A stretch of DNA of 20,277 nucleotides from a virus: IMG/VR virus record IMGVR_UViG_3300027759_000532, positions 1 through 20,277 of that record. The stretch is one strand, 5' to 3'. The translations under genes and the position numbers were made by a program. Below are positions 6,292 to 18,887 of the stretch, piece after piece. The notes under the pieces are model-generated. The model did not search any database. It had not been told where the DNA came from and saw nothing but the letters and a program-made list of their open reading frames with translations. Position 1 is the stretch's first letter. Every line of letters starts with the position of its first letter.

Positions 6292-7983
6292 ATGGCACTA
6301 TTAGACTTTCTTAAATTCAACAAAACTGTGGATGAACCAGTTGAAACTCGCAGCGACACGCTTGGTGGTCCAGTAGTTCTAAACTGGGATAGTGCTTATG
6401 GCTATGGACGCAACATTGACCGTTTGAGTGTTGTATATGGTTGCATCAATCTGCGAGCAAGTACTGTTGCTAGTTTGCCAATACAACTGAATCGTAAGTT
6501 GAATAGAGGACACGAGCCAGCCAAAGATCATGAATATTATGATTTGATTACCAAGCGTCCAAACGGCTTTCAAACAAATTATACTTTTTGGCATTGGGTT
6601 ATTACACAAGTGGATATGTTTGGTAATGTATATATCCAGAAAATCCGTAATAATGCTGGAACTGTAATAGAGATGTTTCCGCTCAACCCAATCAGTGTTG
6701 AGGTTTTTATGAGCAGCGATGGTATGCCGTATTATAAAATGAACATCACTGGTGTTGATGGTGTGAACTATTACAAAGAATTTAGTTATGACCAAATCAT
6801 TCATATCAAAGGATATAGCCGCAATGGTGTATATGGATTGAGCCTCATTGATACATTTCGTACATTATATGATGGCTATCTGGAACTGGAAAATGCTGGA
6901 ACAGCAATAGCTAAGAATGCAGCCAAGCCAGCGGGTATTGTATATTATCCTGGCAATATGAAAGAAGAAGAATTGGAAAAGATGAAAAGTGGATGGAAAG
7001 CAGGATTCACAAGTGGCAACAGCGGCAAAACAGCATTTCTTCCAAACACAATAAAAGTTGAAACTCCAACTGTTGGACTTACAGCACAACAAGCAGAATA
7101 TATTCAACAAAAGCAATTTAGTGCTCAACGTATTGCTGCTGACATTTTTAGAGTTCCATTGCATATGTTGGGATTAACCAATGCTCCAACATACAGCAGC
7201 ATAGAACAACAAGCCATTGAGTTTGTGCAATATACAATCACACCACTTGTTACAAACATTGAACAACAAATACAAAAGCAATTGTTGGATGATGCTGAAG
7301 ATGTATATATAAATTTTAATGTAAATGGATTGTTGCGTGGAGATATCAAAACCAGAATGGAATGGTATAGATTTGGTATTGAGCACGGCATTCTTACACC
7401 AAATGATGTGAATGAAGCAGAAGATACTGGATTATTTATTCCTGCCGAAAAAGGTGGAGACGATTATATTCGTCCACTCAACTTCACAGTTATTGGAGCA
7501 GCACCTATACAATCTACAGCAGCACCTGCTATTTCTCCATTATCTGCATCTATAGAAGGTCGTAGTTGTCCAGTAGAAACGCAAGACATAGGTGCTAATC
7601 TTGCTAACAGACAAAAAGCAATAAATGTTGCTCACTACGGACCAGCCAATCCACAATTACCAAATGAAGAATACTGGATGGCAAAGGCAAAACAGTTCAA
7701 TACTAATATATCTGAAGCACGCACAATGAGATGTGCAAACTGTGCTGCATTCAATGTTAGTAAAAGAATGAAAGATTGTATCAATACTGGTATAGGTGCT
7801 GACGCAAATGAAGTGCAAGCACAAGTTGGAGAACTTGGATATTGTGAGTTATTTGACTTTAAATGTGCTGGTTCAAGAACTTGCGATGCTTGGCTGACTG
7901 GCGGACCAATAAGAAATGAAAACTCTGATTCATTAGCAAATAATGAAGTTTCAAGTAGTGTTGCTATTTCATCACCTATCTAA
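6292..7983 (+). CDS. HK97-family portal protein with six-cysteine C-terminal extension
   Basis: 563 residues; the portal domain occupies about 10-400 and has hallmark segments VVYGCINLRASTVASLPIQL, FWHWVITQVDMFGNVYIQKI, KGYSRNGVYGLSLI and RIAADIFRVPLHMLGL. Twelve copies form the ring at the capsid vertex through which DNA passes. HK97 portals are usually near 400-430 residues; the extra 130 include NEEYWMAKAKQFNTNIS followed by a cysteine cluster at C481, C484, C496, C518, C525 and C531 and a terminal CDAW. The spacing (C-x2-C, then C, then GYCELF, then TCDAW) suggests metal or iron-sulfur binding, somewhat like HiPIP proteins. Similar cysteine modules occur in phage structural proteins as I recall, but I cannot confirm that here. 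Confidence 0.95.
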   Translation: MALLDFLKFNKTVDEPVETRSDTLGGPVVLNWDSAYGYGRNIDRLSVVYGCINLRASTVASLPIQLNRKLNRGHEPAKDHEYYDLITKRPNGFQTNYTFWHWVITQVDMFGNVYIQKIRNNAGTVIEMFPLNPISVEVFMSSDGMPYYKMNITGVDGVNYYKEFSYDQIIHIKGYSRNGVYGLSLIDTFRTLYDGYLELENAGTAIAKNAAKPAGIVYYPGNMKEEELEKMKSGWKAGFTSGNSGKTAFLPNTIKVETPTVGLTAQQAEYIQQKQFSAQRIAADIFRVPLHMLGLTNAPTYSSIEQQAIEFVQYTITPLVTNIEQQIQKQLLDDAEDVYINFNVNGLLRGDIKTRMEWYRFGIEHGILTPNDVNEAEDTGLFIPAEKGGDDYIRPLNFTVIGAAPIQSTAAPAISPLSASIEGRSCPVETQDIGANLANRQKAINVAHYGPANPQLPNEEYWMAKAKQFNTNISEARTMRCANCAAFNVSKRMKDCINTGIGADANEVQAQVGELGYCELFDFKCAGSRTCDAWLTGGPIRNENSDSLANNEVSSSVAISSPI

Positions 7984-7995
7984 CTATTTATATCT

Positions 7996-8661
7996 ATGAA
8001 CAACAGTCTTGAACACAGAGCATATAATATGATGGATGTCAAAGTTGACAAAACACAACGCATTATTGAAGGCAGAGCAGTTGTGTATAACAGCATGAGC
8101 AATGAACTGCGAACATCAAGTGGAGATAAATTTCGTGAAATCATACAACCAGGTGCATTGACTGATAGTTTAGCAAACAATGATATTTTAGCATACAAAG
8201 AACACAATCCAGCAATGTTGTTGGGAAGAAAAAGTGCTGGCACATTGATGTTGGAAGATAGAAATGATGGATTGTATGTAAGAATAAATGTGCCCGACAC
8301 AAGTTATGGACAAGACACATTGGTCAGTGCTGAACGCGGCGATCTAAAAGGATTTAGTTTTGGCTTCAACAGTCCAAAAACAAAAAGTTACAGCCGCTCT
8401 GGAGAAAAGATTCGTGAAATCAGTTCATTGAACTTACGTGAAGTGAGCATTGTATCTAATCCAGCATATAATGAAACAACATTGAGTGTTGTTCGCAGTG
8501 AAGATTTTGTTGAAGAAACTAAAGAAGAAACTGAACGATCTGTTGTTATTGCTGAAGCATTGAAAAAAATAACAGATATGATGGAAAAGAAAGACGATAT
8601 CAAAGACGACAGCAAAGAATACGAATATCGTTTCAAGTTCATAAGTCTAACACATAAATAA
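7996..8661 (+). CDS. prohead protease, HK97 family (peptidase U35/S78-like)
   Basis: 221 residues. The catalytic region is clear: His70 in AYKEHNPAMLLGR, Ser121 in RGDLKGFSFGF, and acidic E149 in NLREVSIVSNPAY, the same order and spacing as HK97 gp4-type proteases. The opening 'R.IEGRAVVYNS' strand is also typical. After about residue 165 comes a charged tail (EETKEETERSVV, then KKDDIKDDSKEYEY), probably a scaffold-like or self-processed segment. The enzyme cleaves the capsid delta domain and itself during head maturation. It lies 12 bases after portal and 52 before capsid. No Shine-Dalgarno sequence is visible. Confidence 0.95.
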   Translation: MNNSLEHRAYNMMDVKVDKTQRIIEGRAVVYNSMSNELRTSSGDKFREIIQPGALTDSLANNDILAYKEHNPAMLLGRKSAGTLMLEDRNDGLYVRINVPDTSYGQDTLVSAERGDLKGFSFGFNSPKTKSYSRSGEKIREISSLNLREVSIVSNPAYNETTLSVVRSEDFVEETKEETERSVVIAEALKKITDMMEKKDDIKDDSKEYEYRFKFISLTHK

Positions 8662-8713
8662 TTTTGCCAAGGGCATCCCCAAGGCTTCAGATAAACAATA
8701 AAAAACAAAACAT

Positions 8714-9889
8714 ATGTCTAATCTATTACAAGATAGAAACACAGTATACGGGGAAATGAAGTCTATCATGTCCCTTGAAAACCGCAGCGAAGGTGACTTC
8801 GCTAAATATAATGAACTGGAAGCAAAATACTCCAGTCTTACCAAACAAATTGAAGCCGAAGTTCGCTTTGATTCTATCAAATCTTCAATGGGAGCAGCCC
8901 TTGACAAACGCGCAGTTGGCAGCAGCAAGACTGGAAATGACGAAGAAATTCGTTCTGCTTTCTTGAACTATGTTCGCACTGGCGATGTGTCTGAAATCCG
9001 CAATATCAACAGTTTCACATCCACAGAAGGTGGCGTGAACGTTCCAGTAATTCTTCTTGGTCAAATCCAAAAAGCATTGCTTGAAAACAGCGTAATGCGT
9101 CGTATTGGTGCTCGTGTTATTGGTACAACCAGCACAACCACGTTGCCAATCACCAACACTGCTCCAACAGCATTGTGGAAGGATCAAAATCCATCTGCTT
9201 CGTATGCTGAAACACCACAAACATTTAGTTCTGCTACACTTGGTGCATACAAACTAACGGCTCTGATCAAAATTTCTGAAGAAGTTCTTCAAGATGCTGC
9301 AACTGATTTGGAATCCACAGTGGCTTCCAACTTGGGAGTTTCGTTTGGTAATGCCGAAGAAACAGCATTCGTGTCTGGTAGTGGCGTTCTACAACCAACT
9401 GGTTTGTTCCGCACAACTGCTGCTGGCGGCAACAATGCTCTTTCGCAAAATCTTGGATCGTCAACTGGCTCTGCATTGTTGGACAATATGATTGCTGCGT
9501 ATTACAAAATGCCAGGTAATCGTCGTCAAGAAGCTTGCTGGATTGTTGGCGATGGTCTTGCTTCGCAAATGCGTCAACTCAAGGCTAGTACCGCAGGTAC
9601 ATACTTGTGGGAAACATCTGTACAAGCCGGAACCCCAGACCTATTTTTAGGGCGTCCCGTTTATACAACCTTTGCTGCTCCTGCTTCGTGGCAATCAACA
9701 ACTGGCGTAATGGGTGCTCTATTGTATCCACAACACTATGTTATTGGTGATCGCGGCGGTTATAGTCTAACTCGCTTGAACGAGTTGTATGCCGCTGAAG
9801 GCAATGTAGGCTACAAAGCATACAAACGTGTTGATGCAGTCTTGACAGACGGCAACTCGTTGGTGAAGCTGGTAGCGAACGTCGCATAA
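8714..9889 (+). CDS. major capsid protein, HK97 fold
   Basis: 391 residues. Residues 1-60 are a charged coiled coil (MKSIMSLENRSEGDFAKYNE, LEAKYSSLTKQIEAEVRF), the delta-domain scaffold expected to be removed by the neighbouring protease. The mature part starts somewhere between residues 65 and 95 and contains family segments STEGGVNVPVILLGQI, ALLENSVMRRIGA, LPITNTAPTALWKDQNPSAS, KISEEVLQDAATDLE, ETAFVSGSGVLQPTGL and PVYTTFAAP. The exact cleavage site cannot be read. Codon choice is somewhat richer in G/C than in neighbouring genes, as in a highly expressed gene. A strong terminator follows. Confidence 0.96.
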   Translation: MSNLLQDRNTVYGEMKSIMSLENRSEGDFAKYNELEAKYSSLTKQIEAEVRFDSIKSSMGAALDKRAVGSSKTGNDEEIRSAFLNYVRTGDVSEIRNINSFTSTEGGVNVPVILLGQIQKALLENSVMRRIGARVIGTTSTTTLPITNTAPTALWKDQNPSASYAETPQTFSSATLGAYKLTALIKISEEVLQDAATDLESTVASNLGVSFGNAEETAFVSGSGVLQPTGLFRTTAAGGNNALSQNLGSSTGSALLDNMIAAYYKMPGNRRQEACWIVGDGLASQMRQLKASTAGTYLWETSVQAGTPDLFLGRPVYTTFAAPASWQSTTGVMGALLYPQHYVIGDRGGYSLTRLNELYAAEGNVGYKAYKRVDAVLTDGNSLVKLVANVA

Positions 9890-9989: not shown

Positions 9990-10475
9990 ATGAGAACTAC
10001 AACCAATATATCTTCGTATGGACCAACACTCACAGAAGCCAAAAATTACCTTCGTGTTGATATAACAAATGATGATGCACTTATAGGTGCTCTTATCACA
10101 GCAAGTTATGACCAAGTGACTGCTGAATGCAACAGACAGTTTAGTCCTTGTACTCAAAGTATGACTGTGTTCAGTTCAAGTGGTGATATATTTTTATCTA
10201 CTCAAACTGTAAATACTGTAAGTACAGGCAGCATAAAAGAATATGCTGGAAGTTGGTACACATATATTCCAGAAGGTGAATATTTTACTGGAAATATATC
10301 ATTCACAGTATCCAGTGGCAGCACTATTCCAAGCAATGTAAAGATTGCTCAAATGATGCTTGTAAATAGTTTTTACGAAAATCGTTTGCCAGAAAGTATT
10401 GGTGTAAGCACATCTCCATTGAGTTACAGCGTTGCTGCAATGCTCAATCCATATAAACTTATAAAGCCGCAATAA
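9990..10475 (+). CDS. head-tail connector protein (gp6-like)
   Basis: 161 residues. The N-terminal segment PTLTEAKNYLRVDITNDDAL then IGALITASYDQVTAECNRQF is the signature of HK97 gp6-type connectors (LxEaKxyLRvdxxxdDxxixxLixaAxxxve). The middle is beta-rich (SMTVFSSSGDIFLSTQTVN and onwards), and the helix KIAQMMLVNSFYENRLP matches the conserved C-terminal 'aillLvahwYenRe' segment. Such proteins form the first ring below the portal. It begins the second late unit after the capsid terminator and is followed, after one base, by the head-closure gene. Confidence 0.85.
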   Translation: MRTTTNISSYGPTLTEAKNYLRVDITNDDALIGALITASYDQVTAECNRQFSPCTQSMTVFSSSGDIFLSTQTVNTVSTGSIKEYAGSWYTYIPEGEYFTGNISFTVSSGSTIPSNVKIAQMMLVNSFYENRLPESIGVSTSPLSYSVAAMLNPYKLIKPQ

Positions 10476-10476
10476 T

Positions 10477-10797
10477 ATGGCATATAATCCTGGAAAATTA
10501 GATGAAAGAATAGTGATGAAATATCCTACTAGCAGTAGCATAGATAGATTTGGTCAATCTATTATGACATACAGCAGTTCAAGTTTATGGACAAATGTAA
10601 AAAAGGAAAGTGGAACTGAAACCAGCAATGGTGGATATATCTACAACACTGCAACATATAAGTTTACATTACGCAGCAACGATAATATAAGTGAAAAATC
10701 AATTATAACATACAACAGCAATGATTATAACTTGGTGTTTATTGATGAACAACCTTTTATTGGATATACAATTGTTGTTGGAGAACGCAGAAACTAA
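10477..10797 (+). CDS. head closure / head-tail joining protein
   Basis: 106 residues: PGKLDERIVMKYPTSSSIDR and FGQSIMTYSSSSLWTNVKKE match the pattern of the Phage_H_T_join family (small beta-barrel stoppers such as SPP1 gp16): 'L..RI.i......d..G......w..vw..v.p..G.E'. GTETSNGGYIYNTATYKFTL is the next conserved strand pair, and FIDEQPFIGYTIVVGERR fits the C-terminal strands. It plugs the portal channel after DNA filling. Its stop codon overlaps the next start by one base (TAATG). Confidence 0.8.
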   Translation: MAYNPGKLDERIVMKYPTSSSIDRFGQSIMTYSSSSLWTNVKKESGTETSNGGYIYNTATYKFTLRSNDNISEKSIITYNSNDYNLVFIDEQPFIGYTIVVGERRN

Positions 10798-11240
10798 TGG
10801 CTGACATTCTAAAAGTTGATATAAAAGGATTGAGCCAACTTCAATCCAAACTTGATGCTATGACTCAAGATATGGCTGCTAAAAGCATTGTGAGTGCAGC
10901 ATATAGTGCCAACAAGCAGGTTGTTGATGCCATAAAAAATAACATAGTATCAAATGGACTGGTGGATACTGGACTATTACAAAGTAGCATAATACGCAAA
11001 AAACTTATATATGGTAAAGATGGCACAGTTGTTATTATAACAGGCATAAATAAAAATACAAAGGGTGTGGACAGCAAAGGCAAAAGCAGAGTGCCGTGGC
11101 GTTATGCCAATGTGTTGGAACCAAAATATAAATTTGTTGAAAATGGATTTGATGTCACCAAACAAAAAGTTGTGGATAGTTTTGTTTCAGCTATAGCACG
11201 CAGAATAAAAAAGTTTGATAAAAATGGAGGCAGTAAATGA
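10797..11240 (+). CDS. HK97 gp10-like neck / tail-completion protein
   Basis: 147 residues: VDIKGLSQLQSKLDAMTQDM then a helix with VVDAIKNNIVSNGLVDTGLLQSSI, the invariant 'DTG.L..S' motif of the gp10/HK97 family, followed by beta strands (GTVVIITGINKNT), a 'RVPWRYANVLE' segment matching the usual 'yA..vEfGt' and a final helix (VVDSFVSAIARRIKKFDK). It acts at the head-tail interface. It starts within the stop codon of the closure gene and overlaps the following gene by four bases (ATGA), so is translationally coupled on both sides. Confidence 0.85.
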   Translation: MADILKVDIKGLSQLQSKLDAMTQDMAAKSIVSAAYSANKQVVDAIKNNIVSNGLVDTGLLQSSIIRKKLIYGKDGTVVIITGINKNTKGVDSKGKSRVPWRYANVLEPKYKFVENGFDVTKQKVVDSFVSAIARRIKKFDKNGGSK

Positions 11241-11596
11241 TACCAACAGGCAGTTATGAGTTTATAAGAGAGTATGTATATAAACAACTGCAAATACCTG
11301 TATATACACAAACAAGTTATGCCAATAGCAATGTATCATTGCCGTGTATTATATTCTCTCGCAACAATACAGATACAATAATGAACATGAATGCTACAGC
11401 AGTATATACAGATGCTATATCATTTGCTATAAAAGCCAAGACTATAGAAAAAGTTGAAGAGTATAGAGACTTTCTTATAGGACTGTTGGATGGATATGAA
11501 TCTCAAATATCTTTACAAGCAGAAACAAACGACTTTGATATAGATACTGCTATTTATACACGAGATGTCTTTTTCAATGTAATCTATAAATTATAA
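11237..11596 (+). CDS. tail-completion / tail-terminator-like protein (DUF3168-like)
   Basis: 119 residues: FIREYVYKQLQIPVYTQTSY then VSLPCIIFSRNNTDT, FAIKAKTIEKVEEYRDFLIG and a final DFDIDTAIYTRDVFFNVIY. The pattern (helix, 'VPVY', 'LP.i.f', strand, helix with RD, 'D....Y...lDf.v.Y') is that of DUF3168/tail-terminator proteins found right after gp10 in siphophages. A GGAGG precedes the start by seven bases. The next ORF begins with a clearly homologous domain, so this is one of two copies. In siphophages the tail-tube protein would come next; here it does not. Confidence 0.7.
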   Translation: MIPTGSYEFIREYVYKQLQIPVYTQTSYANSNVSLPCIIFSRNNTDTIMNMNATAVYTDAISFAIKAKTIEKVEEYRDFLIGLLDGYESQISLQAETNDFDIDTAIYTRDVFFNVIYKL

Positions 11597-11600
11597 TCAT

Positions 11601-14600
11601 ATGTCCGGAATTACAGAATACTATAATAATCTTCGCCAACTAATACACTATAATCTGGGAGTTCCGGTATATAGCGAAGCTACATTTGAAAATCAGAATG
11701 TTGAACTGCCGTGTGTTGTGTTTAGCCGAAATGATACACTGGGAACACAAACAATGAATGGTCCAAGTGTTCGTACAGAAACTGTAACATTTAGTGTAAA
11801 AGCAAAAACAATACAAGCTGCTGATGATGACAGAGATTTGATAATCTCTCTATTGAATGGATATAGTGCAGAAATACAAATGGTTCTCAACAGCGAACAA
11901 GATGATTTTGATATAACCAGTGGAATTTATAGCAGAGACATAAGTTTTGATGTAACATATGGTGCAGACATAGAATATTTTAATCCTATCAGTGGCAATG
12001 GTGATGCTCCACAAGTTGCAATCTGGAAAAGTAAATATATCATTACAGGCAGCAATGTAATGGGCATCACCGGCAGCAATGTATTGTTTATTGGCGATGT
12101 AGTTATTAGTGGAAGTTTGAGTGTGAGCGGCAGTTTTGTTGGCACAAGCGGAACCAGTGGTATGAACGGCAGCAGCGGAACCAGTGGTATAAATGGTACA
12201 AGTGGAACTACCGGAACAAATGGAACCAGCGGCAGCAGCGGATTTGGCAGCAGCGGAAGCACTGGCAGCAGTGGTTCGTCTGGCAGCAGCGGAGCCAATG
12301 GCAGTAGTGGCAGCAGCGGAGCCAATGGTACTAGCGGAAGCAGTGGTAGTAGCGGCAGCAGAGGCTCGTCTGGTAGTACTGGCTCAAGCGGAAGCACTGG
12401 CAGCAGTGGTAGTAGCGGCAGCAGTGGAGCCAACGGCACAAGTGGAAACAGTGGTAGTACAGGCTCAAGTGGTTCATCTGGCAGCAGTGGAAGCACTGGC
12501 AGCAGTGGTAGTAGCGGCAGCAGTGGAGCCAACGGCACAAGTGGCAGCAGTGGTAGTACAGGCTCAAGTGGTTCATCTGGCAGCAGTGGAAGCACTGGCA
12601 GTAGTGGTTCGTCTGGCAGCAGCGGAGCCAATGGCACAAATGGTAGCAGCGGCAGTAGTGGAGCCAACGGAAGCAGTGGTAGTAGCGGAAGCACTGGCAG
12701 CAATGGTAGTAGCGGCAGCACTGGATCAAGTGGCAGCACTGGAACAAGTGGCAGCAGCGGACAAGACGGCAACTCAAATACATTCTTTGATTATCAAGCA
12801 AAAACAAACATCACAACCGGAAATCCCGGTAGTGGTCATATAATTTGGCACAATGCCAATCAAACTGGAAGCAATACAATAGGTGTAAATCATTTAACAT
12901 ATGCTGGTATAGACATAGATGTGTTTCTTGCACTAATACCAAGTGGTAGCACTGTACTATTACAAGATTTAAACGATAGCAATAATTATCAACAATGGCA
13001 ATTTGGTACAGGCGTTGAAATATCTCCAAATTTATATTGGGAGTTTCCAGCCACACATATAACAGGTAGTTATAGTTTCACAAATAATCACCAGATATTG
13101 TTTATTATAGCACAGTTGCCAATGGGCACAAGTGGAACAAGCGGAGTTAATGGCTCAAGTGGCTCTTCTGGTTCAACGGGTTCGTCAGGTTCAAGTGGTT
13201 CTTCTGGTTCAACAGGAACCAGTGGATCAAGTGGTTCAACGGGAACATCTGGTAGCAGTGGTTCAACGGGAACATCTGGTAGCAGTGGTTCAACAGGCAC
13301 AAGTGGATCAAGTGGTTCGTCTGGAACAAGCGGTTCAACAGGAACCAGTGGTTCGTCTGGAACAAGCGGAGTTAATGGCTCAAGTGGCTCTTCTGGTTCA
13401 ACGGGTTCGTCAGGTTCAAGTGGTTCTTCTGGTTCAACAGGAACCAGTGGATCAAGTGGTTCAACGGGAACATCTGGTAGCAGTGGTTCAACGGGAACAT
13501 CTGGCAGCAGTGGCTCGTCTGGCAGCAGCGGAGCCAACGGTTCGTCTGGCAGCACTGGATCAAGCGGAAGCACTGGAAGCAGTGGTTCGTCTGGCAGCAG
13601 TGGAGCCAACGGTTCGTCTGGAACCAGCGGTGCAAATGGTTCGTCTGGCAGCACTGGATCAAGCGGAAGCACTGGAAGCAGTGGTAGCAGTGGTAGCAGT
13701 GGTAGTAGCGGAAGCAGTGGTAGTAGAGGCAGCAGTGGCAGCACTGGAAGCAGCGGGTCAAGTGGCAGCACTGGCTCAAGCGGCAGCAGTGGAAGCACTG
13801 GCTCAAGCGGAAGTAGTGGCAGCACTGGAAGCAGTGGTAGCAGTGGTATAAGTGGAACAGTATTAACAAGTGGAAGTCTTTATGACATAACAAGCAGTTA
13901 TGCTATAACAGCAAGTTATGCACTAAACGCAGGTAGTGGAGTGTCTGGTGGTGCAACAAATTATGTAGCAAAATTCAGCAGTGCTACAACATTAACAACT
14001 GGATCATTGTTTGATAGTGGCAGCAGAGTTGGTATTGGTACAATATCACCAAACGCAACATTGGATGTAAATGGAAAAGTTATTATAACAGGTAGTTTAA
14101 CCTCTTCACTTGATGCAAATATATATGGTATAAATGTTGGTAGAGGAGGCGGTTCAATAGACACCAACACAGCAGTTGGAAGTGGGTCTCTAAACAGCAA
14201 CACCACGGGAAGCTACAACACAGCAGTTGGATATCAATCTCTAGCAAGCAACACCACTGGATGGTTAAACACAGCGGTTGGACATACTTCTTTAGCCAGC
14301 AACACCACTGGATACGGAAACACAGCAGTTGGGCATCAATCTCTATTAAGCAACACAACTGCATATTTCAACACAGCAGTTGGATACAGATCTTTATTAT
14401 TAAATACTACTGGAATTAATAATACAGCACTTGGAGCCAGTTCTTTGCTATATAACACCACTGGAAAAGAGAATGTAGCAGTTGGAACTTGGGCTTTATT
14501 TGCCAACACAACTGGAAGTTATAACACAGCCGTTGGACTTACTGCTTTATATCAAAATACTAGTGGAAGTTATAACACAGCAATTGGATGGAAATCTCTT

Positions 14601-16913
14601 CTCAATAATACAACTGGAGATAGTAATGTTGCTGTCGGATATAGTTCTCTACAAGCAAATACAACTGGATACAGCAACACAGCGGTTGGACTTAGTTCTC
14701 TATATAGCAACACAAGTGGATACAACAATGTAGCAATTGGAATTTTATCTCTACAAGCCAACACCACTGGAGAAGGCAATATAGCGATTGGACCTAGTGC
14801 TCTATACAGCAACACAACTGGTACTAACAATGTAGCACTTGGAGTTAGTGCTCTAAACGCCAACACATCAGGATTCTCAAACATAGCGATTGGACGCAGT
14901 TCTCTATTCAACAACACCACAGGATACCAAAATGTGGCGAATGGATATGCTTCTCTATACAGCAACACAACTGGAAATAAAAACACAGCAGTTGGACACA
15001 ATTCATTACAAATCAACACAACTGGATTTGAAAATACAGCGGTTGGATTTGAATCTCTATTAAACAACACCACTGCGGACTACAACACAGCGAATGGATA
15101 TCGTTCATTATACAGCAACACAACTGGAGAACTTAACACAGCGAATGGACATCGTTCATTATACAGCAACACAATTGGAGGCAGCAACACAGCGGTTGGA
15201 CTTAGTTCTCTATATAGCAACACCACGGGAGACGAAAACACGGCGGTTGGACTTAGTTCTCTATATGGCAACACCACAGGAATCGGTAACACAGCGAATG
15301 GATGTGGTTCTTTACGCAACAACACTGGAAGTTACAACACAGCAGTTGGACATATATCTCTATTCAACAACACGATAGGATACGCAAACACGGCGATTGG
15401 ACATGATTCTGGTAGAACAATAACAAGTGGTAGTGGAAATACATTTGTTGGAGATAGTGCTGGTTATAATGCAGCTCAACTAATAGCACCAGTCAATAGT
15501 ATGGCTTTGGGCAGTGGTTCATACACAACAGCAGACAATCAAGTGGTGATTGGAAATACTAGTATAACACAAACATTGTTGAATGGAAGTGTTGCTATAT
15601 CCAAAACAAATCCAAACGCAACATTGGATGTAAATGGCAATGTTATAATAACAGGTTCACTCAATGTTACAACATATATAACAGCCAGTTTATTTGGAAC
15701 TGCCAGTTATGCTGTCACGGCTTCGTATGCATTGAATAGTGGTGAAGTTTCTGGTGGTGCAACAGATTATGTAGCAAAATTTAGCAGTGCCACACTACTA
15801 ACAACTGGTTCATTATTTGATAGTGGCAGCAGAGTTGGTATCAATAAAACTACACCAAGTGACACACTGGATGTAAATGGAAGTGTTAAAATTACAGGTA
15901 GTCTTGTTATAAGTGCGGCAATAACTGCCAGTGCGATAACAACTACAAATGATTCAACAATCAGTGGATTGAGAATTGGAAAAGGACTTGCAAGTGTTAC
16001 CAGTAATACTGCTGTTGGAGTTAGTGCATTGGGATCAAGTACTACTGCTGGAACTTTTAATACAGCACTTGGAAATAATACACTGAGAGTAAATACAAGT
16101 GGAAGTTTTAATACAGCAGTTGGTGCTGAGGCTATGTATGTCAATACAGTTGGAAGAAACAACGTAGCAGTTGGCTATGCGTCTCTAAGAAACGGAAACA
16201 TCTCAGGAAGTTCAAATGTAGCAATTGGATCAAGAGCTGCATACAATAATACTGGAAGTGGAAACGTAGCAATTGGAAGTGGATCTTTTTTTGCAAAATC
16301 TGGTGGAGACAACAATGTTGCAGTTGGATCGCAATCTGGTCTCAGTATAACTAGTGGTGATGGAAATACATTTATTGGAGAAAGTGCTGGTAATAACGTA
16401 CTTCAACTAGCAACTCCAGTCAACAGTATGGCTCTGGGTAGTGGATCATACACAACAGCAAACAATCAAGTTGTGATTGGAACCAACAGCATCACACAAA
16501 CATTGTTGTATGGAGCTGTTCAAATAACAGGTTCATTGAATGTATCTACATCTATAACAAGTAGTTTGTTGGGCACAGCAAGTTATGCTAATATAGCAAT
16601 GTCTGCATCATTTGCTACATCAGCAAGTTATGCTACAACATCTTCAGTTGCTAATACTGCTTCATATATTGCTTGGGCAAATGTAAATGAAAATAATACA
16701 GACACATTTATTGGCACAGCAAGTTATGCTACACAAGCATTGACGGCTTCATATGCAACTACAGCAAGTTATGCACTCAATGGTGGAAGTGCATTGACAT
16801 CTGGCAGTCTTTACAATATAACCAGCAGTTGGGCAGTAACAGCAAGTTATGCCTTGAACGCCACAGCAACAACATTGGACCTTGACAGTGTATGGATATA
16901 TTCTGGTATATAA
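11601..16913 (+). CDS. giant modular tail fibre with N-terminal tail-completion domain
   Basis: 1770 residues. In order: 1-125 a homologue of the preceding tail-completion protein (shared VPVY, N-V-x-LPC, FSRN, KAKTI, LL-x-GY, DFDI, IY-x-RD); 126-180 linker with GSLSVSGSF; 181-390 Gly-X-Y collagen-like block; 391-508 globular insert (FFDYQAKTNITTGNPGSGHI, LALIPSGSTVLLQDLNDSNN); 509-752 second Gly-X-Y block; about 755-840 GTASYA-like stalk and VGIGTISPNATLDVNG module; 856-1280 twenty-five 17-residue NTAVG repeats; about 1280-1455 a stalk/module duplicate; 1469-1588 seven further repeats; then a third stalk to the end. There is no C-terminal S74 chaperone domain. It is probably a trimeric host-recognition fibre anchored by the N-terminal domain. 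The start at 11601 follows the previous stop by four bases. Confidence 0.85.
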   Translation: MSGITEYYNNLRQLIHYNLGVPVYSEATFENQNVELPCVVFSRNDTLGTQTMNGPSVRTETVTFSVKAKTIQAADDDRDLIISLLNGYSAEIQMVLNSEQDDFDITSGIYSRDISFDVTYGADIEYFNPISGNGDAPQVAIWKSKYIITGSNVMGITGSNVLFIGDVVISGSLSVSGSFVGTSGTSGMNGSSGTSGINGTSGTTGTNGTSGSSGFGSSGSTGSSGSSGSSGANGSSGSSGANGTSGSSGSSGSRGSSGSTGSSGSTGSSGSSGSSGANGTSGNSGSTGSSGSSGSSGSTGSSGSSGSSGANGTSGSSGSTGSSGSSGSSGSTGSSGSSGSSGANGTNGSSGSSGANGSSGSSGSTGSNGSSGSTGSSGSTGTSGSSGQDGNSNTFFDYQAKTNITTGNPGSGHIIWHNANQTGSNTIGVNHLTYAGIDIDVFLALIPSGSTVLLQDLNDSNNYQQWQFGTGVEISPNLYWEFPATHITGSYSFTNNHQILFIIAQLPMGTSGTSGVNGSSGSSGSTGSSGSSGSSGSTGTSGSSGSTGTSGSSGSTGTSGSSGSTGTSGSSGSSGTSGSTGTSGSSGTSGVNGSSGSSGSTGSSGSSGSSGSTGTSGSSGSTGTSGSSGSTGTSGSSGSSGSSGANGSSGSTGSSGSTGSSGSSGSSGANGSSGTSGANGSSGSTGSSGSTGSSGSSGSSGSSGSSGSRGSSGSTGSSGSSGSTGSSGSSGSTGSSGSSGSTGSSGSSGISGTVLTSGSLYDITSSYAITASYALNAGSGVSGGATNYVAKFSSATTLTTGSLFDSGSRVGIGTISPNATLDVNGKVIITGSLTSSLDANIYGINVGRGGGSIDTNTAVGSGSLNSNTTGSYNTAVGYQSLASNTTGWLNTAVGHTSLASNTTGYGNTAVGHQSLLSNTTAYFNTAVGYRSLLLNTTGINNTALGASSLLYNTTGKENVAVGTWALFANTTGSYNTAVGLTALYQNTSGSYNTAIGWKSLLNNTTGDSNVAVGYSSLQANTTGYSNTAVGLSSLYSNTSGYNNVAIGILSLQANTTGEGNIAIGPSALYSNTTGTNNVALGVSALNANTSGFSNIAIGRSSLFNNTTGYQNVANGYASLYSNTTGNKNTAVGHNSLQINTTGFENTAVGFESLLNNTTADYNTANGYRSLYSNTTGELNTANGHRSLYSNTIGGSNTAVGLSSLYSNTTGDENTAVGLSSLYGNTTGIGNTANGCGSLRNNTGSYNTAVGHISLFNNTIGYANTAIGHDSGRTITSGSGNTFVGDSAGYNAAQLIAPVNSMALGSGSYTTADNQVVIGNTSITQTLLNGSVAISKTNPNATLDVNGNVIITGSLNVTTYITASLFGTASYAVTASYALNSGEVSGGATDYVAKFSSATLLTTGSLFDSGSRVGINKTTPSDTLDVNGSVKITGSLVISAAITASAITTTNDSTISGLRIGKGLASVTSNTAVGVSALGSSTTAGTFNTALGNNTLRVNTSGSFNTAVGAEAMYVNTVGRNNVAVGYASLRNGNISGSSNVAIGSRAAYNNTGSGNVAIGSGSFFAKSGGDNNVAVGSQSGLSITSGDGNTFIGESAGNNVLQLATPVNSMALGSGSYTTANNQVVIGTNSITQTLLYGAVQITGSLNVSTSITSSLLGTASYANIAMSASFATSASYATTSSVANTASYIAWANVNENNTDTFIGTASYATQALTASYATTASYALNGGSALTSGSLYNITSSWAVTASYALNATATTLDLDSVWIYSGI
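12141..12770 (+). repeat. collagen-like Gly-X-Y repeat block I
   Basis: Glycine occupies every third position for about 210 residues, with X and Y almost only Ser, Thr or Asn/Ala and no proline; a single frame break (GSSGFGSSG) occurs near the start. Serine is mostly AGC/AGT. A 99-bp internal period is visible (the GGAGCCAACGGCACAAG segment recurs at 12426 and 12525). Confidence 0.9.
13125..13857 (+). repeat. collagen-like Gly-X-Y repeat block II
   Basis: About 244 residues of Gly-X-Y with Ser/Thr/Val/Asn and no proline. The first half uses TCA/TCG/TCT serine codons, the second half returns to AGC/AGT. It includes an exact 147-bp direct duplication. Confidence 0.9.
13133..13504 (+). repeat. 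exact 147-bp direct duplication, 225 bp apart
   Basis: Bases 13133-13279 and 13358-13504 are identical; the second ends where TCTGGT becomes TCTGGC. The offset of 225 bp is 75 codons, so the frame and the triplet register are kept. Confidence 0.85.
14166..15437 (+). repeat. 25 tandem 51-bp units (17-residue NTAVG repeats)
   Basis: Consensus N-T/V-A-V/I-G-x-x-S/A-L-x-x-N-T-T-G-x-x. Nearly all units are exactly 17 residues (one is 16, NTANGCGSLRNNTGSY). The pattern resembles trimeric beta-roll heads such as that of YadA, whose period is shorter. Confidence 0.9.
16005..16364 (+). repeat. second, shorter NTAVG-type repeat set (7 units)
   Basis: Seven looser units (NTAVGVSALGSS, NTALGNNTLRVN, NTAVGAEAMYVN, NVAVGYASLRNG, NVAIGSRAAYNN, NVAIGSGSFFAK, NVAVGSQSGLSI), then NTFIGESAG and the NSMALGSGSYTTA module, mirroring the order after the first set. 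Confidence 0.85.
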
Positions 16914-16975: not shown

Positions 16976-17338
16976 ATGGCTTACGGCAACATAAAACAAT
17001 TATCATCATACACATTACATGCAACAGAAAGCATTGTATATACTGCTCCTATCAGCAAATCTGTTGAAGTAGCAACATTTTGGTTTCATAACACTGGTTC
17101 AGCAGTTATTACAGCACAAATGTTTTTTCCATTTACTGGCAGCACTGCAACAGTTGGTTTGAGTGGAAATATACAACGCTTGAGTGAAGGCTTTAGCGGC
17201 AGTGTTACATTAGAAATTAGTCCAAAGGTTCCATTTGTGCTCAACAGCGTAACTGGTAGTCATGGTGAAAAAATCACAATGAAAGCAAGCAACAGTGGTT
17301 CATTGAATGTAATCATTTACGGACGAGAAGAAGTATAA
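16976..17338 (+). CDS. hypothetical beta-rich structural protein (120 aa)
   Basis: 120 residues starting MAYGNIKQLSSYTLHATES. It is dominated by alternating strand segments (VEVATFWFHNTGSAVITAQM, SVTLEISPKVPFVLNS, EKITMKASNSGSLNVIIYGR), suggesting a single beta-sandwich. No cysteines, no membrane segment, no signal peptide. It stands between the giant fibre and the propeller-like protein, 1 base before the latter, so it is likely a fibre-associated, adaptor or decoration protein. The family is not recognised. Confidence 0.75.
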   Translation: MAYGNIKQLSSYTLHATESIVYTAPISKSVEVATFWFHNTGSAVITAQMFFPFTGSTATVGLSGNIQRLSEGFSGSVTLEISPKVPFVLNSVTGSHGEKITMKASNSGSLNVIIYGREEV

Positions 17339-17339
17339 T

Positions 17340-18263
17340 ATGTTCAAAAATAGCACAGGGCGATTTGGTAGAGTAAAATTTGCCATTGGTATGGAAAGTC
17401 CATATCCATATATCATAGTTATTACACCAACAGGAACAGGAACACAAAAAGCTATATTTGGATATGGATATAATGGTGGCAATGTTTCAATGACCAATCT
17501 TGTTAGCAACACAGGCGTTGTAGCGACTGATACAACGGGTGTTGGAACGGCAAGACAGGCTCTAGCAGCAGCGGGTTATGGCAGTGACAAAGCTATATTT
17601 GGATATGGATATTACGAGGTTTCAATGACCAATTTAGTTAGTAACACAGGTGTTGTATCAACTGACACAACTGGTGTTGGTACGGGAAGACACTATTTAG
17701 CAGCAGCGGGTTATGGAACTGACAAAGCAATATTTGGATATGGAAATGGAAGATCAATGACCAATAAAGTAAGCAACACCGGTGTTGTATCAACTGACAC
17801 AACGGGCGTTGGTACGGCAAGACAAATTTTGGCGGCGGCTGGGTATGGAACAGACAAAGCTATATTTGGATATGGGCAAACCTTTTCAATGACCAATTTA
17901 GTTAGCAACACCGGCGTTGTAGCAACTGACACAACTGGTGTTGGAACGGCAAGATATGGTCTTGCAGCAGCGGGTTATGGAACTGACAAAGCAATATTTG
18001 GATATGGAAACGGTGGTGGTTATCTTTCATTGACAAATCTTGTTAGTAACACTGGCGTTGTATCAACAGATACAACGGGTGTTGGCACAGCAAGAGAGTT
18101 TCTAGCAGCAGCGGGTTATGGAACTGACAAAGCAATATTTGGATATGGAAACGGTGGTTATGTAACAAATCTTGTTAGTAACACTGGTGTTGTAGCAACT
18201 GATACAGCTGGTGTTGGCACGTCGAGATTTGTTCTAGCAGCAGCCGGATTCTCACTAACATAA
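17340..18263 (+). CDS. propeller-like repeat protein, putative receptor-binding protein
   Basis: 307 residues: a 36-residue N-terminal part (MFKNSTGRFGRVKFAIGMES), then six tandem units of 44-47 residues starting KAIFGYG, followed by SMTNLVSNTGVV, STDTTGVGT and LAAAGYGTD. Unit starts are at bases 17448, 17589, 17724, 17856, 17988 and 18129. Six similar blade-sized units suggest a six-bladed beta-propeller of Kelch-like type. The framework is almost invariant; residues after KAIFGYG and two residues after GT-x-R differ in every unit, as expected for loops on one face that contact a ligand. Position beside the fibre suggests host recognition. Repeat type is certain; role and fold are inferred. 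Confidence 0.75.
   Translation: MFKNSTGRFGRVKFAIGMESPYPYIIVITPTGTGTQKAIFGYGYNGGNVSMTNLVSNTGVVATDTTGVGTARQALAAAGYGSDKAIFGYGYYEVSMTNLVSNTGVVSTDTTGVGTGRHYLAAAGYGTDKAIFGYGNGRSMTNKVSNTGVVSTDTTGVGTARQILAAAGYGTDKAIFGYGQTFSMTNLVSNTGVVATDTTGVGTARYGLAAAGYGTDKAIFGYGNGGGYLSLTNLVSNTGVVSTDTTGVGTAREFLAAAGYGTDKAIFGYGNGGYVTNLVSNTGVVATDTAGVGTSRFVLAAAGFSLT
17448..18260 (+). repeat. six tandem 132-141 bp repeats
   Basis: Units of 141, 135, 132, 132, 141 and 132 bp. Length differences fall in the variable loop after KAIFGYG. Confidence 0.9.
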
Positions 18264-18269
18264 AATATT

Positions 18270-18887
18270 ATGGCATCAAACTTAAATTCTGAATTCAATT
18301 ATAAATACCAAGTCATTGGTAGTACTCCTTGGGAAAAACTCAAAACACTGCAAGGATTTTTAGTTGGTCGCAAACGAGCCGCTGTACTTGAAAAATGTGC
18401 TGATCTTAAATATAAATCAAAACTTGCTGAATACAAGCATCTGCTGACAGTTCCAGCATTGCCACATATATTATTGAATCTTGAAGCCGAAATACTGGAA
18501 TTAGAATCACACCTAGATGATCAAAAACATGCGTTTGAGCTTAATCGTAATGAAATTAAAATATTAGAAAATCTTATAAAACAACTATATGAAATTTGTG
18601 AACCTACTCGTATAGAAGGCTATACAGATGATCAAATGTTTGAAGCTAATGCCAATCTTGAATTCACTGTAAATGTTGGTCGTGAATTACAAGCCGAGAT
18701 TATTGCAAATGGACGACCAAGTCCAGCAAAGCTATTGAACGCAATGAGCAATCCCCAAACACTACAAATGCTAACATCAGTAGGTTTGGTTCCAGAAGGC
18801 ACAACATTACTAACAGCAGGTAGCAAAGAAGATTTTCTTAAACTAGCCGCTGGTGTAAGTTCGGAAGATAAAAAACTTATACAATAA
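18270..18887 (+). CDS. hypothetical protein with central coiled coil (205 aa)
   Basis: 205 residues: N-terminal YKYQVIGSTPWEKLKTLQGF and LVGRKRAAVLEKCADLKYKS, a long charged helix region 45-125 (LNLEAEILELESHLDDQKHA, ELNRNEIKILENLIKQLYEI), and a C-terminal part with FTVNVGRELQAEIIANGRPS and a 'NPQTLQMLTSVGLVPEG' motif. Soluble and acidic. It starts six bases after the propeller gene stop and is followed by a small W-rich gene, so belongs to the fibre/lysis operon. A chaperone or assembly factor is possible; no family recognised. Confidence 0.75.
   Translation: MASNLNSEFNYKYQVIGSTPWEKLKTLQGFLVGRKRAAVLEKCADLKYKSKLAEYKHLLTVPALPHILLNLEAEILELESHLDDQKHAFELNRNEIKILENLIKQLYEICEPTRIEGYTDDQMFEANANLEFTVNVGRELQAEIIANGRPSPAKLLNAMSNPQTLQMLTSVGLVPEGTTLLTAGSKEDFLKLAAGVSSEDKKLIQ

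Follow-up and report, generated by a model that had tools for sequence, protein, structure and literature searches.

Why should a giant phage fibre begin with a copy of the small protein encoded just ahead of it, and where on the virion would such a fibre be held? These questions are raised by a viral contig of 20,277 nucleotides (IMG/VR record IMGVR_UViG_3300027759_000532), analysed over its whole length and referred to here as the window. The genes described below, from the head-tail adaptor to the fibre cassette, lie on its plus strand. An open frame for a 119-aa protein (11237..11596) is followed, after four bases and in a different reading frame, by a single open frame of 1770 aa (11601..16913), an arrangement with counterparts in relatives. 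Residues 1-125 of the larger product (11601..11975) are homologous to the 119-aa protein: 49 of 113 positions are identical (43%; 110 bits, E 3e-37 in BLASTP), and the local alignment score of 273 compares with a mean of 30.6 (SD 5.6, maximum 67) over 2000 shuffles. A sequence-only reading of this DNA had recognized this homology; its coordinates for both copies are correct, and the motifs it named are found in the sequence. Neither copy is resembled by any other ORF of at least 60 aa in the window.

The genes immediately upstream encode a head-tail adaptor (gp6-like, Ad1; 9990..10475; PF05135, E 4.7e-10; phrog_40, E 1.1e-15), a head closure protein (Hc1; 10477..10797; PF05521, E 1.1e-6; phrog_25, E 2.1e-6), and an HK97 gp10-like protein of the Neck1/tail completion family (10797..11240; phrog_5, E 3.2e-11). 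The order adaptor, head closure, gp10-like, terminator is that of TP901-1 (PMC4493119), whose "Tap" we take to hold the gp10-like position, and of the contigs L057 and L059.

The Two Domain Copies and the Fibre

AlphaFold2 models of the two copies, obtained in separate runs, have identical topology, with a mean pLDDT of 83.8 for the stand-alone protein and 80.5 for the fused domain; the N-terminus of the fibre is not an unrelated fold. Foldseek searches of the PDB put the two copies with tail terminators: matches of the stand-alone copy include lambda gpU, phiXa, T5, and T1, those of the fused copy phiXa (E 1.5e-6), gpU, T4 gp15, and T5 p142, and DT57C, GTA, and R4C terminators also appear, which bears out the tail-completion or terminator identity proposed from the sequence. 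Among predicted viral proteins, the named top matches of the fold search are mostly tail completion, tail terminator, or DUF3168 proteins. At the sequence level, phrog_347 ("tail terminator") is matched by nine of 17 family members (best E 3.3e-6), the two copies in the window being unmatched, and hhalign of the family against outgroup terminators gives E 2.3e-4 (probability 44%). Neither copy has a relative among 50,697 phage records. The sole PDB sequence match, to designed WRAP-T proteins, covers 30 residues only and was judged irrelevant. Two of the terminator-fold matches among predicted viral proteins exceed 300 aa (A0A516LX71, 641 aa; A0A8S5QQ35, 385 aa, a "bacterial repeat domain" protein), and given these, fusions other than the present family may exist.

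Behind the domain, a linker (residues 126-180, 11976..12140; ...W.D.YI.TGSN...GSLT), similar in most fused relatives, leads into a collagen-like region (12141..13862; Pfam Collagen, E 1.1e-61). This comprises 152 Gly-X-Y triplets in runs of 11 (12141-12239), 59 (12246-12776), and 82 (13125-13862), the second and third separated by a globular insert. Two blocks of YadA-head-like repeats of ~17 residues (NTAVG..SL..NTTG) follow at 14166..16415, the first with 26 regular copies. The shaft is probably trimeric, because collagen-like and YadA-head-like motifs normally trimerise. The collagen-like part is estimated at ~132 nm, assuming 0.29 nm per residue as in the collagen triple helix, and the tail at ~124 nm from an 825-residue tape measure, assuming 0.15 nm per residue; under both assumed rises, the two lengths are similar. 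Fibre length differs among relatives (a second fusion in L014, of 473 aa, lacks collagen), so reach beyond the tail tip is no general rule. Phage zth2-2 has the fibre module alone in common with the window and otherwise looks unrelated.

The fibre cassette continues with three satellite genes (16976..18887) encoding 120, 307, and 205 aa. None matched a family in profile searches. The 120-aa gene keeps its relative place 3' of the fibre in many relatives, and the three products are possibly fibre accessory proteins. The 307-aa protein (17340-18263) is built of tandem repeats of ~45 residues (GTDKAIFGYG...SNTGVV.TDTTGVGT.R).

Relatives and Their Gene Arrangements

No tube or tape-measure genes occur in the window because it stops too early. 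Downstream, relatives encode a lambda-like tube protein (Phage_TTP_11, phrog_158), two small genes where the G/T assembly chaperones belong, a tape measure of ~825 aa, and Dit-like, DUF6950, and J-like tip proteins. Such a gene set rules out a podovirus or tail-less particle; since the relatives carry tube, tape measure, and J-like tip genes, they are siphophages that have an ordinary distal tip as well.

Terminator and tube genes normally adjoin. In the relatives they are separated by the fibre, its satellites, a holin-like gene, and an endonuclease: the slot directly after the gp10-like gene is of the terminator type, and the tube gene follows ~10 kb on, past the fibre cassette. The corresponding place in L057 and L059, two siphophages serving as outgroups, is taken by a short ORF of like sequence pattern that carries no fusion and is flanked by the gp10-like and tube genes. 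Several relatives have homing/endonuclease VII-like genes near the one for the tail tube (L026, 9418-10044, minus strand; L001, 15481-16125, minus strand). In the unrelated siphovirus contig L056, a 503-aa ORF (7432-8940) with a secretion-signal-like start fills the terminator position, after the gp10-like gene and before the tube gene.

Scans of IMG/VR found contigs with the fused domain in 17 metagenomes, representing about 11 lineages counting the window; the domain fusion that the sequence-only reading had singled out thus recurs in about ten further lineages. Three arrangements occur. A stand-alone copy accompanies the fused one in the window, in L001/L002, in the lineage of L003-L007 and L010-L012 (the L010 and L012 contigs stop before the fibre), and in L019. 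Only the fused domain is seen, directly adjacent to the gp10-like gene, in L013, L015/L016, L017/L018, L020, and L021/L022; several of these contigs are short, and a copy may lie elsewhere in those genomes. Two different fusions occur without a stand-alone copy in L014 (8875-11490 and 13269-14687) and L023 (5420-7801 and 9998-12754; this lineage is also represented by two shorter contigs, L024 and L025).

In whole-record searches, the contig G014 (28,996 bp, from terminase through tail tip) yields one terminator domain, which is fused to a fibre and lies in the terminator slot, next to the gp10-like gene. No other OR­F of its tail module gave a terminator-family match; within the reach of the profile applied, the fusion is the sole predicted terminator of this phage, with a small chance that one of unrelated sequence is also encoded. 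G007 and G016 each have two terminator domains, both fused and neither stand-alone. Whole-record searches with phrog_347 and PF11367 returned nothing, a weak result since they also missed the fused domain, and a host/prophage search of a genome-contig collection with terminator and MCP profiles gave no match.

Of the structural proteins compared, the fused domain varies least (mean identity 79.5%, against 73.2% for the adaptor, 72.7% for MCP, 67.7% for head closure, 63.2% for the gp10-like protein, and 62.6% for the stand-alone copy), and its dN/dS is lower than that of the stand-alone copies, with dS near saturation. The stand-alone copies group in a single, fully supported clade, yet they are scattered across the core-gene tree; the window has one, and none is seen in L013 and L020, the relatives closest to it, whose contigs end in or just after the fibre. 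The fused copy is conserved and universal; the stand-alone one is an optional duplicate that most lineages seem not to have. Of the earlier description of a tail-completion domain duplicated and fused to the fibre, the two homologous copies stand, but gene maps and trees of the relatives point to the stand-alone copy, not the fused one, as the extra. In the simplest history, the fused terminator would be the old form, duplicated once, and the stand-alone copy would later have been lost or transferred on several occasions; the reverse order of events may also apply, the root of the domain tree being unsure.

Proposed Anchoring of the Fibre at the Neck

We consider it likely that a hexameric terminator ring has the fusion chain among its subunits and that the fibre of this chain projects from the neck as a second adhesion device. 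The first ~125 residues would be part of the ring by which the tail tube is capped and joined to the head, an assembly and position suggested by the domain's family. In phages with one such gene the fusion would make the entire ring, and in those with two, whether one of each kind or a pair of fusions, it would probably be mixed. The rest of the chain would trimerise through its collagen-like and YadA-like segments and extend from the neck as a long fibre, serving alongside the J-like distal tip in host binding, as its fibre type suggests. The single fused domain of G014 and the exclusively fused pairs of G007 and G016 make it likely that the fusion is, or helps to build, the terminator ring. 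Given the terminator domain, and its slot in the single-domain relative, the neck anchoring suggested by the sequence-only reading is the most economical reading, with the position in the virion a predicted one.

A sixfold ring could carry two trimeric fibres, a single fibre if half its subunits are stand-alone ones, or two unlike fibres where there are two fusions; such stoichiometries are speculation, with which the three gene arrangements happen to agree. Sixfold ring and threefold fibre have no simple match, and this counts against the ring model. The terminator sheet lines the tube, the C-terminus of the T5 terminator helps to bind the neighbouring subunit, and C-terminal tagging of that protein led to aberrant polymerisation (PMC11784142); a C-terminal fibre would therefore need an outward exit. 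The T5 tail completion protein, contrary to expectation from gene position, is absent from the proximal end (PMC11784142). Both the tagging and the tail completion results may be read as cautions for the predicted neck position of the fusion. A more specific proposal, to which we give an even chance, is that the fibre is itself the tail terminator: where there is a single copy, six fusion chains would close the tail and necessarily bring fibres with them, so that completing the tail and attaching the fibres would be a single step, and in two-gene phages a mixed ring would set the number or kinds of fibres.

Improbable, in our judgement, is a retired terminator, in which the fused fold would serve only to attach the fibre to a ring formed by another protein, the stand-alone copy or one that escaped recognition, and would not close the tail itself. 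Division of tasks is common between duplicates, the four lineages that keep a stand-alone copy (the window among them) would suit it, and fixed class-specific residues are present. However, G014, G007, and G016 have no stand-alone copy, the G014 module offers no other terminator candidate, and constraint is stronger on the fused domain than on the stand-alone copy. Considerably less probable still is cleavage of the fusion, as a polyprotein, behind its terminator domain, which would leave the fibre unattached to the ring. Processing occurs in some phage structural proteins and the sequence is compatible with it, but most lineages have a similar linker at this place, cleavage would be superfluous where a stand-alone copy is present, and no specific cleavage signal was recognised. 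An assembly or frameshift artefact joining a terminator and a fibre gene can practically be dismissed: repeat-rich fibre genes are prone to misassembly, but here the junction precedes the repeats and lies in one open frame, it recurs identically with a conserved linker in independent contigs from the 17 metagenomes and about 11 lineages (window included), and dN/dS is 0.04-0.14, with dS near saturation.

Known Neck Appendages and Other Genes of the Window

A terminator that holds a fibre at the neck, the reading we prefer, has partial counterparts. Siphophage terminators (lambda gpU, SPP1 gp17, T5 p142, phiXa; DUF3168 / PHROG 347) are like the present domain in fold, in domain size, and in their slot after the gp10-like gene, but those known are ring proteins of 110-170 aa with no fibre, whereas that of the window carries a giant one. 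The fibres of the lactococcal neck passage structure, or NPS (TP901-1, 936 group), have been proposed to exit at the connector by way of a BppU-like anchor (PMC6669499, PMC4493119). They are long trimeric siphophage fibres with variable ends, thought to leave the neck, much as predicted for the present fibre; unlike it, they have a BppU-like N-terminal anchor and a separate non-essential gene, and the terminator is separate. In our fibre the N-terminus has the terminator fold in place of a BppU-like domain.

Whiskers offer a second comparison. In Sf14 they are distinct proteins fixed to the adaptor (PMC11821841); in phage 812 a stopper decoration protein probably holds them (PMC12886913); and in R7M the whiskers at the junction of head and tail are unexplained (PMC8265664). 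Together with the whiskers of T4, these share with the fusion, whose position is predicted from genes, the character of fibrous neck appendages; they differ in being separate proteins, at adaptor or stopper level where resolved, and fusion to a terminator is not reported. The larger terminators of myophages and PVC16 (PMC11784142) likewise bear an additional domain on the terminator chain, but their extra domains bind sheath or repeat the ring fold and are not fibres. We found no report of a terminator-fibre fusion in the open-access literature, subscription papers being mostly outside the search. The sequence-only reading had called the architecture unfamiliar; neck fibres as such are already known (PMC6669499, PMC8265664, PMC11821841), and it is the tail terminator as their anchor that appears new.

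If true, a core ring for finishing long tails has been turned into the socket of an adhesion device. Tail assembly would be coupled to attachment of the neck fibre, these siphophages would have a second receptor-binding system, and neck fibres could be predicted from sequence. The anchor domain is ~80% identical across lineages, and the fibre bodies behind it differ widely.

Elsewhere in the window, the left end of the contig truncates a gene on the minus strand (2-229) whose start resembles an adenine DNA methyltransferase (RYAGGKSRAIKIITPFIP), and a 249-aa ORF (372-1121) contains four in-frame copies of the short repeat GSYVQVT. The portal protein (6292-7983) has 563 aa, compared with 414-424 aa in most relatives, and its extra C-terminal portion is rich in cysteine (CANC...YCELFDFKC...C); extended portals are also found in L014 (550 aa) and L038 (578 aa).
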